A stretch of DNA of 64,000 nt from Acidilutibacter cellobiosedens (GTDB taxonomy: Bacteria; Bacillota; Clostridia; Tissierellales; Acidilutibacteraceae). The stretch covers positions 1,726,673 through 1,790,672 of the forward strand of contig NZ_CP035282.1 of the NCBI RefSeq assembly GCF_004103715.1. Reading direction: 5' to 3'. The translations under genes and the position numbers were made by a program. Of this stretch, positions 56,037 to 59,996 are shown piece by piece; position 1 is the first letter of the stretch, and the number at the start of each line of letters is the position of its first letter. The notes under the pieces were generated by a model, which did not search any database, was not told the DNA's origin, and saw nothing but the letters and a program-made list of their open reading frames with translations.

Positions 56037-56077
56037 CGTATATGCATTATCTTTGGAGTGGGGATATAAAAGTAAAC

Positions 56078-56106
56078 TTGACAAAATATATCCAGAATGA
56101 TATATT
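56078..56106 (+). promoter_or_regulatory. Promoter of the Rrf2 gene with internal operator
   Basis: Consensus TTGACA (56078-56083), 17 bases, then TATATT (56101-56106). The inverted repeat ATATATC (56086-56092), 6 bases, GATATAT (56099-56105) fills the space between the two elements and overlaps the -10. This is where a self-repressing Rrf2 dimer would bind; that is an inference. Confidence 0.75.
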
Positions 56107-56146: not shown

Positions 56147-56557
56147 TTGCTGATTACACGGGAAACAGATTACGCGTTGAGAATTTTGCGCGTATTGGCA
56201 AACGGGAAACGGGTTACTTCAGGTGAGATATGTAAACGTGAATTGCTTCCTCAGCAGTTTGTATATAAGATTTTAAAGAAGTTGGAGAAGGCAGGAATTA
56301 TACAGATTACCCGAGGTGTTGACGGGGGCTGTAGATTAACCGGAGACCTTAAAAAGCTCAGTTTATATGATTTGACTGAAATCGTTGAGGGAAATAAGTT
56401 TATAAGCGCTTGTATGCAACCTAATTTTCAGTGTGCATGGAGAAAGAAATACAACTCTAAGTGTAATGTACATTGTCATTTATTGAAAATCCAGGAGGTA
56501 TTTGATAGAGAATTGCGTATCCATAGTATTTATCAAATATTATTTGAACAAGTTTAA
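56147..56557 (+). CDS. Rrf2-family transcriptional regulator, cysteine-rich
   Basis: This 136-residue protein has the Rrf2 winged-helix domain: ITRETDYALRILRVLANG, LLPQQFVYKILKKLEKAG and RGVDGGCRL. The C-terminal half has Cys89, Cys96, Cys106 and Cys110 with His109 and His111, in the region where IscR and NsrR bind iron-sulfur clusters, so it may sense O2, NO or redox state. The start is TTG 56147 with GGAGGGAA upstream. It has its own promoter with an operator-like repeat, and the fusion gene and flavodiiron gene follow. Arginine is mostly CGN here, unlike the rest of the window. Confidence 0.9.
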   Translation: MLITRETDYALRILRVLANGKRVTSGEICKRELLPQQFVYKILKKLEKAGIIQITRGVDGGCRLTGDLKKLSLYDLTEIVEGNKFISACMQPNFQCAWRKKYNSKCNVHCHLLKIQEVFDRELRIHSIYQILFEQV

Positions 56558-56576
56558 CTTTTTATTTAAATGGATT

Positions 56577-56604
56577 TGAACATTAAATATATTTTACATA
56601 TAAA
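56577..56604 (+). promoter_or_regulatory. Candidate promoter of the fusion gene
   Basis: TTGAAC (56577-56582), 16 bases, then TATAAA (56599-56604). A short inverted repeat TATAT (56588-56592), 5 bases, ATATA (56598-56602) overlaps it at the same place as the operator of the Rrf2 promoter. A second TATAAT (56684-56689) lacks a clear -35. The AT-rich background makes these calls weak. Confidence 0.4.
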
Positions 56605-56736
56605 GTGGACAATTTTTATCAAGTATATGAAACCCGTTTAAAATGCTGGTTTGCTACCATAAAATTAGGTATTTGGTATGCTTTATAATAAGTTTTATAC
56701 AAATAAAATATAATTTAAATAAAAGGAGGGAATGGT

Positions 56737-58641
56737 ATGTTTTTTAAGACAAGGGAAGATCATGAATCTTTACGTACAAAAATTCGAGAATTTGCGGAAA
56801 CTGAATTGAAACCTCAAACGTTTCTTCTTGATAAGGAGAATGAGTTTCCTACAGAGATTGTTAGAAAAATGGGAGAGATGGGTTTGATGGGAGTTCCATA
56901 TCCTAAGGAGTATGGCGGTTTAGACTTGGATATGATCAGTTACGCTATTGCCGTTGAGGAGATTTCTCGAATAGATGGGGGCACCGGAGTTATTCTTTCT
57001 GCTCATGTTTCTTTAGGATCGTGGCCCATATTTGCTTATGGTACAGAAGAACAAAAACAAAAATATCTGATTCCTTTGGCAAAAGGCGAAAAATTGGGGG
57101 CATTTGGTCTTACAGAACCAAATGCCGGCAGTGATCCGGGGGGAATGGAAACCACGGCTGTTCTTGACGGTGATTATTATATACTGAACGGCGGAAAGAT
57201 TTTTATAACAAATGCAGATAAAGCTGATATCTATATTATTTTTGCTGTTACTATACCGGATATAGGAACTCACGGTATTAGTGCATTTATTGTGGAAAAA
57301 GGATGGGAAGGTTTTACTTTTGGAGATCACTATGACAAGATGGGTATCCGTTCGTCTTCTACTGCTGAATTGATTTTTAATAATGTGAAAGTTCCAAAGG
57401 AAAATTTATTAGGAAAGGAAGGAGACGGATTTAAGATCGCAATGTCTACTTTAGATGGCGGTCGTATCGGTATTGCCTCCCAGGCTTTAGGTATTGCTCA
57501 AGGAGCTTATGAAAGTGCTTTAGAGTATTCCAAAGAAAGAATTCAGTTTGGAATGCCTATTTGTTATCAGCAGATTATTTCATTTAAACTGGCTGATATG
57601 GCTACAAAGCTTCGAGCATCCCGACTTATGGTATATAGTGCTGCCGACCTTAAGGAAAATCATGAGTCTTATAGTATGGAATCTGCCATGGCAAAGCAAT
57701 ATGTTTCTGACAATTGTTTGGAAATTGTAAATGATGCCCTTCAAATTTTTGGAGGTAATGGGTATTTGAAAGGCATGGAGGTAGAGCGGGCTTATCGTGA
57801 TGCAAAAATTTGTACAATTTATGAAGGCACCAACGAAATTCAACGGATAGTTATTGCGTCTCACATTATCGGGAAAATGCCAAAAAATGAAGCCACCACA
57901 CGGGGAAAACGAGGGTCCTTAACCGGAACACGCAAAAAGATGATTTTTAAAGATGGTACTGCCAAAGAACAAGTAGCTGCTTTGGTAGATGCGTTGAAAG
58001 CGGATGGATATGATTTTACCGTAGGGATAGACATTGATACTCCTATTTCCAAAGCTGAGAGAGTTGTAAGTGTAGGCAGGGGAATTGGCAATAAAAAAAA
58101 TATGTTCATAGTGAAAGATCTTGCTGTTCAAGCAGGCGCAGCTCTGGGTTCTTCCCGTCCTGTAGCCGAAACCCTGAAATATGTTCCCCTAAACCGTTAT
58201 GTTGGAATGTCGGGACAAAAATTTAACGGCAATTTATATATAGCCTGTGGTATTTCCGGAGCAGGTCAGCATTTGAAAGGAATTAAAGATGCCACTACCA
58301 TTGTTGCTATTAACAATGATCCAAATGCTCCTATTTTTAAAAACTGCGATTATGGGATTGTAGGAGATATGATGGAAGTTGTTCCGCTACTTACTGCCGC
58401 CCTTGATAATGGCGAACCTAAAAGGTTAGCACCTCCCATGAAAAAAATGAAGAAGGCTGTTCCGAAAAAGGTCGCTCCGTCTTGGAAGAGATATGTCTGC
58501 AACGGATGTGGATACGAATACGATCCTGCTGTCGGAGATCCGGATAATGATATTCAGCCGGAGACTATTTTTGACTCCCTTCCCGAAGAATGGATTTGTC
58601 CTGAGTGCGGCGAAGAAAAGAAAAATTTTATAGAAGTATAA
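56737..58641 (+). CDS. Acyl-CoA dehydrogenase / ETF-alpha FAD domain / rubredoxin fusion
   Basis: This encodes a 634-residue three-part flavoprotein. Residues 1-380 are a complete acyl-CoA dehydrogenase with the catalytic base Glu363 in [10 protein letters not shown] and [11 protein letters not shown] for FAD. Residues about 436-562 are the C-terminal FAD domain of electron transfer flavoprotein alpha: [29 protein letters not shown] and [11 protein letters not shown]. The N-terminal ETF-alpha domain and all of ETF-beta are missing. Residues 584-634 are a rubredoxin with Cys588, 591, 621 and 624. Electrons would pass from an acyl-CoA to FAD, to the second FAD, to rubredoxin, then to the flavodiiron protein encoded next. 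The acyl-CoA substrate is unknown; short-chain is likely. CGN codons make up 15 of 22 arginines. Confidence 0.93.
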
Positions 58642-58692
58642 TAAAATTGCTAAAAATAATAAATATTTATTTAATGTAAAGGAGGATTTGGT

Positions 58693-59895
58693 ATGCATTG
58701 TGTTAGAAAAGTAATTGATGATCTTTATTGGGTAGGAGCTAATGATCATCGTCTTGCATTATTTGAAAATATTCATCCTATTCCACGAGGTGTTTCTTAT
58801 AATTCATATGTGCTTTTGGATAAACGGACAGTTCTTTTTGATACGGTAGACTGGTCGGTTTGCCGTCAATTTTTAGAAAATATTGAAGCGGTTTTGAAAG
58901 GCAGACAATTGGATTATTTAGTGATTAATCATTTGGAGCCTGACCATGCTGCATGTATTGAAGAGATTTTATTGCGTTATCCTAAAATCAAAATTATAAG
59001 TAATGAAAAAGCTTTTATGATGATGCGACAGTTTGGTTTCCATATTGATGAACGCATTGAAGAGGTTAAAGAAGGGGATACGAAATCTTTCGGGAAACAT
59101 GTGGTGACTTTTGTATCTGCGCCGATGGTTCATTGGCCTGAAGCCATGGTTACTTTTGATACGACTAACGGAGTTCTTTTTTCTGCAGATGCTTTTGGTT
59201 CCTTTGGTGCTTTAGACGGAAAACTTTTTAATGATGAGGTGAATTTCGAACGTGATTGGATAGATGATGCCAGAAGATATTTTACAAATATCGTAGGAAA
59301 ATATGGTCCTCACGTTCAGGCACTGCTCAAAAAGGCTTCAGGAATTGATATTAAAATTATATGCCCTCTTCACGGTCCCGTATGGCACAGTAATTTAGGA
59401 TATTTTTTGGATAAATATGACAAATGGAGCAGATATGAACCGGAGGAAAAGGGAGTTATGATCGTATATGCTTCTATGTATGGCAATACCGAAAGTGCGG
59501 CGACCATCTTGGCCTCAAAGTTGGTAGAAAAGGGTTTAACTAATTTGGTAATGTACGATGTCTCTAATACCCATGTATCCTATTTGATTTCTGAAACATT
59601 CCGTCTCAGCCATGTAGTATTGGCTTCCGTTACTTATAATTTGGGAATTTATCCAATGATGCACAGTTATCTGATGGATATGAAGGCATTAAATTTGCAG
59701 AAACGTACTTTTGCCATTATAGAGAACGGTTCTTGGGCTTGTAAGTCAGGAACATTGATTAGAGAATTCCTGGAAAATGAAGTTAGGGATATGACTGTTT
59801 TAGATGAAAAATTGACTCTAAATTCAACTATGAACGAAGATAATCTTTCGGATATGGAAGTTCTTGCTGATAGCATTATTAAGTCCATGAAATAA
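58693..59895 (+). CDS. A-type flavodiiron protein (FprA-like)
   Basis: This 400-residue protein reduces O2 to water, or NO to N2O, using electrons from rubredoxin. The metallo-beta-lactamase-like domain (1-250) has all diiron ligands: His80, Glu82 and Asp84 (NHLEPDH), His147, Asp166 and His227. The flavodoxin domain (about 254-400) starts MIVYASMYGNTESAA. It is an A-type protein without an attached rubredoxin, and the rubredoxin is supplied by the fusion protein upstream, 51 bases away. GGAGG (58680-58684) precedes the ATG. A palindromic terminator follows. Its CGN arginine codons match the two genes before it. Confidence 0.96.
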   Translation: MHCVRKVIDDLYWVGANDHRLALFENIHPIPRGVSYNSYVLLDKRTVLFDTVDWSVCRQFLENIEAVLKGRQLDYLVINHLEPDHAACIEEILLRYPKIKIISNEKAFMMMRQFGFHIDERIEEVKEGDTKSFGKHVVTFVSAPMVHWPEAMVTFDTTNGVLFSADAFGSFGALDGKLFNDEVNFERDWIDDARRYFTNIVGKYGPHVQALLKKASGIDIKIICPLHGPVWHSNLGYFLDKYDKWSRYEPEEKGVMIVYASMYGNTESAATILASKLVEKGLTNLVMYDVSNTHVSYLISETFRLSHVVLASVTYNLGIYPMMHSYLMDMKALNLQKRTFAIIENGSWACKSGTLIREFLENEVRDMTVLDEKLTLNSTMNEDNLSDMEVLADSIIKSMK

Positions 59896-59960: not shown

Positions 59961-59996
59961 AAAAAGGTTTCATTAATATATTAATGAAACCTTTTT
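59961..59996 (+). terminator. Palindromic bidirectional terminator after the flavodiiron gene
   Basis: Positions 59961-59978 and 59979-59996 are perfectly complementary (AAAAAGGTTTCATTAATA and its complement) with no spacer. The arms begin with A5 and end with T5, a typical two-way intrinsic terminator. It closes the Rrf2 cassette. Confidence 0.85.

Follow-up and report, generated by a model that had tools for sequence, protein, structure and literature searches.

A BOOR-type acyl-CoA and flavodiiron locus in Acidilutibacter cellobiosedens, its predicted Rrf2 operators and its natural variants

Introduction

In Fusobacterium nucleatum, BCR, in which a butyryl-CoA dehydrogenase is fused to the C-terminal part of EtfA and to a rubredoxin, is bicistronic with the flavodiiron protein (FDP) FN1423 (PMC12288474), and the gene pair has been named FN1423-FN1424 (PMC12630350). 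The two partners constitute BOOR, an alpha4-beta4 complex that performs the butyryl-CoA-dependent reduction of O2 to water (PMC12288474), for which both articles cite Bystrom and Wolthers 2024 (Biochemistry 63:2352). BOOR, Rnf and Bcd-Etf are encoded by many Firmicutes (PMC12288474). A 2026 preprint (PMC13404960) describes an uncharacterised Rrf2 protein, C0FN14, which is encoded beside BOOR in gut Clostridia and carries three cysteines and Asp8, the ligand set of NsrR, and proposes that oxidation of the Rrf2 cluster by reactive oxygen or nitrogen species (ROS/NOS) lifts the repression of BCR-FDP. The subject of this work is a 64,000-nucleotide stretch of the Acidilutibacter cellobiosedens genome (NZ_CP035282.1, positions 1,726,673 to 1,790,672; hereafter, the window), located within one 3.74-Mb contig, where open reading frame calls place three consecutive + strand genes at positions 56147-59895, encoding an Rrf2 regulator, a BCR fusion and a flavodiiron protein. 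Judged by its sequence, this locus is a further member of BOOR, an enzyme known since 2024, with natural variants nearby; its being a novel system was ruled out, since both the enzyme (2024) and the Rrf2 link (2026 preprint) are already in print.

The locus places a published O2-scavenging enzyme in another anaerobe, whose order includes Tissierella, and provides the likely local regulator of BOOR with a concrete predicted operator. In addition, variants that lack the rubredoxin cysteines, or rubredoxin altogether, make the electron role of the rubredoxin iron experimentally addressable. Strict anaerobes that spend fermentation intermediates to survive air are also of relevance to butyrate-producing gut bacteria.

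The BCR fusion and its flavodiiron partner

An initial annotation, made from the letters and open reading frames of the window, had described the central gene as encoding an acyl-CoA dehydrogenase with an intact Glu363, the FAD domain of the electron transfer flavoprotein (ETF) alpha subunit and a four-cysteine rubredoxin, and the Pfam domain search and the residues themselves bear this out (Table 1). The domain content of the locus proteins was also obtained from NCBIfam, and a separate genome search placed the rubredoxin domain identically. The catalytic glutamate and the four rubredoxin cysteines are invariant in 31/31 aligned fusions, window included, and a CxxC...CxxC arrangement is present in 80/80 BCRs of a contig collection with named records, these being the best 80 of 366 stretches that encode a BCR relative. 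A protein search of this collection yielded homologues that are 74-87% identical across the whole fusion, which, together with the long intact frames, rules out a chance origin; the possibility of an assembly artefact was rejected, the same fusion being present in 30 aligned homologues from other records. The BCR lacks the N-terminal ETF domain PF01012 (Pfam), and Pfam analysis of the flanking genes revealed no ETF-beta gene adjoining the locus, so that BCR would have no NADH-side flavin.

The acyl-CoA dehydrogenase part finds its best solved relative in 5ol2 chain C (E 5.4e-140), and the best 60 of 211 matches to solved structures contain separate acyl-CoA dehydrogenases only, with no structure of the whole fusion. 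An AlphaFold model based on 31 near sequences reached a mean pLDDT of 78.6 and a pTM of 0.58, with pLDDT below 50 at residues 125-137, 200-204, 341-343, 362-397 and 575-581, and is too weak for its inter-domain geometry to be read.

In a tree of 82 fusions, from which the rubredoxin columns were left out, the window BCR pairs with the L003 protein (87% identical) and falls within a supported group made up of 27 three-domain forms, among them those of Caproiciproducens, Megasphaera, Clostridium and Fusobacterium, in which the branching is partly unsettled. Across the columns compared in the tree, Tissierella praeacuta (L044) has a BCR identical to that of G021, a genome belonging to the host's order. 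Kinship to the Fusobacterium enzyme is close, as seen from this tree and from the BCRs of Fusobacterium vincentii (74.8% identical to that of the window, with the four rubredoxin cysteines kept) and Fusobacterium sp. L015 (79.7%), FN1424 itself lying outside the comparison; the F. vincentii flavodiiron protein is 66% identical and starts approximately 34 nt past the end of the BCR match. The presence of Caproiciproducens and related genera, which elongate chains, among the near relatives leaves a small chance that the same electron chain serves another acyl-CoA, for example a C6 or branched one, as its physiological substrate; against this stand the best solved relatives of the dehydrogenase part, which include butyryl-CoA and short-chain acyl-CoA dehydrogenases, and the butyryl-CoA pathway genes of the host (see below).

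The initial annotation also recognized an adjacent flavodiiron protein with all of its diiron ligands. Indeed, the motifs NHLEPDH (from residue 79), MVHWPE (from 145), SADAF (from 164) and PLHGP (from 225) supply H80, E82, D84, H85, H147, D166 and H227, and Pfam recognizes an ODP domain at residues 35-228 (8e-21) and Flavodoxin_1 (7e-6; 26.6 bits, cut-off 25). The closest PDB relatives are flavorubredoxin and rubredoxin:oxygen oxidoreductase (6etb, 1e5d). The gene lies 51 nt past BCR in the same direction, and this layout predicts an operon. The association is constant: a flavodiiron gene is next 3' of the three-domain BCR in 80/80 named-record loci (18-183 nt after the BCR match), in 39/39 distinct three-domain-length fusions of a second genome collection (identical proteins counted once, by the first locus met), nine of which are Cys-free, and in 20/20 further loci of that collection, all Cys-free, the two collections overlapping by at least two species. 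Among these loci, the neighbourhood survey that the annotation had called for thus revealed no three-domain homologue apart from a flavodiiron gene, the layout that, if consistent, the annotation had named as refuting its reading.

The Rrf2 regulator and its predicted operators

The regulator, which had been noted as a cysteine-rich Rrf2, matches PF02082 and carries six cysteines. It displays the Rrf2 fold with Asp8 and three cysteine ligands, a feature of Fe-S Rrf2 proteins of the NsrR/IscR type, and by these residues probably carries an Fe-S cluster. An Rrf2 gene was detected upstream of BCR in 33/80 named-record loci, some contigs ending too near to judge. Comparison of 28 of these 33 (at least 45% identity) and the window protein revealed that D8, C62, C89, C96 and C106 are invariant in 29/29, with H109 kept in 25/29. 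C62 (window numbering) is an extra cysteine that does not belong to the customary ligands.

When the 29 intergenic stretches between rrf2 and bcr were searched for palindromes in common, GATAA-N3-TTATC emerged in 8 of them. The widened form GAYAA-N3-TTRTC occurs exactly in 12/29 intergenic and 12/29 rrf2-upstream stretches, and 24/29 loci have such a site, with no more than one mismatch, in one region or the other. Shuffled stretches gave on average 0 and 0.05 exact matches per set, and 0.9 one-mismatch best matches. In a control consisting of the 200 nt that precede BCR in 47 loci without a detected Rrf2, exact sites were found in 1/47 and sites with at most one mismatch in 4/47 (exact core, intergenic versus control, Fisher p 1.6e-5), the stretches compared differing in length. 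The sole exact control, L008, may have its rrf2 off-contig, since the contig is cut approximately 410 nt upstream of BCR; at L008:60-280, upstream of BCR, four operator-like repeats (0, 1, 1 and 2 mismatches) lie 62-64 nt apart. Six added bases on each side extend the core to a 25-bp palindrome near AAACTTGATAAAATTTATCAAGTTT, which resembles the IscR type-1 site. The window has two such sites (Table 1), both of which were included in building the scoring matrix, and GAYAA-N3-TTRTC within the 25-bp palindrome is a probable Rrf2 operator.

Throughout the host genome, these two sites are the sole matches to a 20-base pattern at 0-1 mismatch, the pattern being asymmetric and possibly under-counting fully symmetric sites. 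A wide Rrf2 regulon in this genome is not supported: all other matches have at least two mismatches, and the total of 28 matches is close to the 25 of the reversed pattern. Outside the motif-deriving set, the exact core precedes rrf2 in Vescimonas (L263). The L263 record, NZ_AP023417.1, whose title gives it as a Vescimonas fastidiosa plasmid of 142 kb, carries rrf2-bcr-fdp; next come a gene of the nitroreductase family and a frame that is 49% identical to part of the window flavodiiron protein.

The nature of the regulator raises the question of whether the operon could be mainly an NO reductase, in which acyl-CoA would drive the conversion of nitric oxide (NO) to N2O under an NsrR-like NO sensor. 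The D8 and three-cysteine set of the window Rrf2 is that named for NsrR (PMC13404960), many flavodiiron proteins reduce NO (PMC12288474), and NO reductase flavorubredoxins head the PDB matches of the flavodiiron protein. No NO reductase activity, however, was seen with the BCR-FDP complex of F. nucleatum (PMC12288474), and Rrf2 went undetected at 47/80 BOOR loci, making this explanation improbable. An O2-reducing operon that is probably O2- or NO-responsive is the reading followed here.

Table 1. Features of the BCR-flavodiiron locus (window coordinates) and location of the Cys-free fusions
Feature	Position	Strand	Details
Rrf2-family regulator gene	56147..56557	+	TTG start, 136 aa; PF02082 2.3e-22
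BCR: acyl-CoA dehydrogenase / ETF-alpha FAD domain / rubredoxin fusion	56737..58641	+	634 aa; Pfam, residues
Acyl-CoA dehydrogenase part	56755..57867	+	residues 7-377, base Glu363; Pfam N/M/C domains; 5ol2 chain C
ETF-alpha FAD-binding domain	58045..58287	+	residues 437-517; PF00766 6e-25
Rubredoxin domain	58489..58629	+	residues 585-631, Cys588/591/621/624; PF00301 5e-19
Class-A flavodiiron protein	58693..59895	+	400 aa; PF19583, PF00258; relatives 6etb, 1e5d; ligands
Predicted Rrf2 operator 1	56074..56098	+	AAACTTGACAAAATATATCCAGAAT; 25-bp palindrome on rrf2 promoter, matrix 33.1
Predicted Rrf2 operator 2	56602..56626	+	AAAGTGGACAATTTTTATCAAGTAT; upstream of fusion gene; matrix 33.5, exact core
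Promoter-like TTGACA-17-TATATT	56078..56106	+	consensus match 11/12, region's best; overlapped by operator 1
Terminator-like AT-rich hairpin 3' of operon	59961..59996	+	minimum free energy -16.7 kcal/mol, z -7.65
Cys-free BOOR fusions	loci L179-L187, L224-L243		genus g26

Fusions without rubredoxin cysteines

In genus g26, of the same order, 29/31 genomes encode a three-domain BCR whose rubredoxin Pfam match is low-scoring and late-starting, the remaining two (G471 and G486) presenting no such match. The rubredoxin domain contains no cysteine in 29/29, with Asp, Ser, Ser and Ser at the ligand positions; nine of these Cys-free fusions measure 641-648 aa, and the eight representatives in the tree form one clade with a support of 100. 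The domain has a pN/pS of 0.18 and a dN/dS of approximately 0.11 over all pairs, where the dehydrogenase reaches 0.06 and the ETF-alpha part 0.09. Of the three ligand-position serines, two are maintained even though both TCN and AGY codons are used for them. All of this indicates that the domain is under purifying selection, and it does not look like one in decay. The next gene starts 5-13 nt after BCR in 29/29 and encodes a flavodiiron protein with three of the four ligand motifs in 29/29; its fourth motif reads LHGL, not LHGP, with the histidine present in all five sequences inspected. A search of titles and abstracts retrieved no report of Cys-free forms, which the primary 2024 BOOR paper may mention.

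In such forms, as in those two-domain forms that are paired with a flavodiiron gene (see below), the ETF-alpha FAD could deliver electrons directly to the flavodiiron FMN, or to free rubredoxin. The latter detour is possible in g26, since 31/31 genomes have a free rubredoxin; the idea that genomes with Cys-free or two-domain forms lack one, which would have spoken strongly for direct transfer, was refuted by a stand-alone frame of 56-100 aa in 24/24. The iron-free domain itself might serve as a docking arm, or bind a different metal. If the Cys-free enzymes work, the rubredoxin iron is not obligatory; these sequences suggest that enzymes of this class may not depend on it as an electron carrier, a possibility to which we give somewhat less than an even chance.

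Fusions without a rubredoxin domain

The host genome encodes a second fusion (G000:C1:1565466-1567175; L090:7467-9176), which consists of 569 aa, joins an acyl-CoA dehydrogenase to an ETF-alpha FAD domain and is 64% identical to the window BCR. Its neighbours, read by eye, include neither a flavodiiron nor an ETF-beta gene; it sits after PTS- (phosphotransferase system) and peptidase-looking genes and before a transposase-like frame, and its place in the tree, on a long branch, is unsure. The 249 genomes of the same order hold 26 two-domain frames of 549-591 aa, this one included, and within 398 genomes drawn from the phylum such frames were present in this genome and in G150 only; a G478 gene with an internal stop was left out of the resulting 27. 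A flavodiiron gene is next downstream of 1 of the 27; for 13 it lies upstream, no more than two genes away and on the other strand; and for 13 it is in neither position, identical proteins again being counted once; some of these genes were judged on short loci, with which longer loci of the same genes agree. The catalytic Glu is retained throughout the 27, as are R474, S492, G493, G508, H512 and N526 of the ETF-alpha part; Q494 is replaced in 10/27 and D538 in 1/27.

At L159, L162, L167, L168 and L170-L178, the two-domain gene and a second class-A flavodiiron gene point away from each other, the product of the latter being 42-45% identical to that of the window. At L163 (G518:C3), one of the 13 with a flavodiiron gene in neither position, the two-domain gene immediately precedes an intact three-domain BCR and its FDP gene; this copy nests among three-domain forms in the tree, which fits rubredoxin loss after duplication. 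The origin of all two-domain forms in one simple loss was rejected, since the tree needs four changes, at least two of which are forced by starred branches.

The 13 with a flavodiiron gene in neither position also include members of butyrate-type clusters. At L157, and likewise at L166, the fusion precedes enoyl-CoA hydratase, thiolase and 3-hydroxyacyl-CoA dehydrogenase genes (Pfam), and at L155 it stands beside 3-hydroxyacyl-CoA dehydrogenase and acetyl-CoA hydrolase/transferase genes (Pfam); the layout of L158, L160 and L161, inspected without a Pfam scan, is similar. These fusions are possible ETF-beta-free crotonyl-CoA/butyryl-CoA enzymes, and raise the question of whether BCR itself could work mainly as a reductase that takes electrons from free rubredoxin or a different carrier and forms butyryl-CoA out of crotonyl-CoA, leaving the flavodiiron protein as a side partner. 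Since the relatives in butyrate-type clusters (L157, L166, L155) belong to a separate rubredoxin-less clade, three-domain forms have a flavodiiron gene directly downstream wherever examined, and the host owns a separate bcd-etfBA, we consider a reductive role for the window BCR very improbable, and retain acyl-CoA oxidation coupled to O2 reduction.

Host context and proposed mechanism

Elsewhere in the host genome, an acyl-CoA dehydrogenase, etfB and etfA lie in a row behind a gene with the two Pfam domains of the redox regulator Rex. In a second cluster, Pfam identifies genes for a thiolase, a 3-hydroxyacyl-CoA dehydrogenase, an enoyl-CoA hydratase and an acyl-CoA dehydrogenase, behind which lie etfB-like and etfA frames. 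One rnfC in the genome scores above its cut-off. These genes make both butyryl-CoA and a recycling loop of the F. nucleatum type plausible in this host. The genome also encodes one free rubredoxin and, far from BCR, a second class-A flavodiiron protein that is 50.5% identical to the first.

In the anoxic cell, Rrf2 bound to the two operators would repress both rrf2 and bcr-fdp, and O2 or NO would damage its cluster and lift the repression, as the preprint proposes for the same regulator group. The FAD of the dehydrogenase would then pass electrons to that of ETF-alpha, from which they would presumably move on to the rubredoxin iron and then into the flavodiiron protein, with its FMN and diiron site, where O2 would be reduced to water, as reported for the F. 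nucleatum homologue. Crotonyl-CoA could be re-reduced by the separate Bcd-EtfBA of the host, with RnfC potentially tying O2 removal to energy conservation. The chain from acyl-CoA to O2 without ETF-beta or NADH, as put forward in the initial annotation, agrees by analogy with the F. nucleatum report; the necessity of its rubredoxin step has become less sure.

By its residues and by analogy with F. nucleatum, the window pair is very probably a working BOOR that mainly reduces O2. A number of points weigh against parts of this scheme. The existence of Cys-free and rubredoxin-less relatives makes rubredoxin doubtful as an obligatory link, and the substrate could be a short-chain acyl-CoA other than butyryl-CoA. 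Regarding regulation, the 47/80 loci without a detected Rrf2, which is found in only 33, place this protein outside the core BOOR system. As for the operator, neither region contains a site with one mismatch or fewer in 5/29 loci, 0/5 loci with a distant Rrf2 (below 45% identity) have an intergenic one, and the motif was widened after the data were seen, from source loci that are related and not independent.

Surroundings of the locus

Pfam identifies the outer neighbours of the locus as a DUF6115 protein and a D-Ala-D-Ala-ligase-like protein. The AT-rich hairpin at the 3' end (Table 1), which had no match in a scan for G+C-rich terminators, is probably the terminator of the operon. RNA regulation was considered and rejected, no Rfam match reaching the gathering score in the window, as was a viral origin: three viral-contig stretches matched a pattern, and none encoded a relative.

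Comparison with known systems

The window system and the F. nucleatum BOOR (BCR FN1424 and FDP FN1423) have the same domain order and the same bicistronic arrangement with a class-A flavodiiron protein. They differ in that the window possesses rrf2 and two predicted operators, whereas no Rrf2 is found within 3 kb upstream in F. vincentii. In its regulator, the locus resembles the C0FN14 group, whose members are likewise located directly upstream of BCR-FDP and carry Asp8 and three cysteines; Eisenbergiella tayi, which the preprint gives as an example of the link between C0FN14 and BOOR, is also among the loci analysed here (L033). The main text of PMC13404960 makes no mention of a motif, operator, binding site or palindrome, and the operator is proposed here.

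The bifurcating Bcd-EtfAB of the Clostridium kluyveri or C. difficile type has a dehydrogenase and an ETF-alpha FAD domain that are homologous to those of BCR, but BCR lacks both the ETF-beta gene and PF01012, and has gained a rubredoxin. Finally, in NAD(P)H-driven systems, such as rubredoxin oxidoreductase/rubredoxin/FDP and the multidomain FDP of C. difficile, a rubredoxin-type donor also feeds an O2-reducing flavodiiron protein; the difference lies in the electron donor, which would be an acyl-CoA in the window system and is NAD(P)H in the others.

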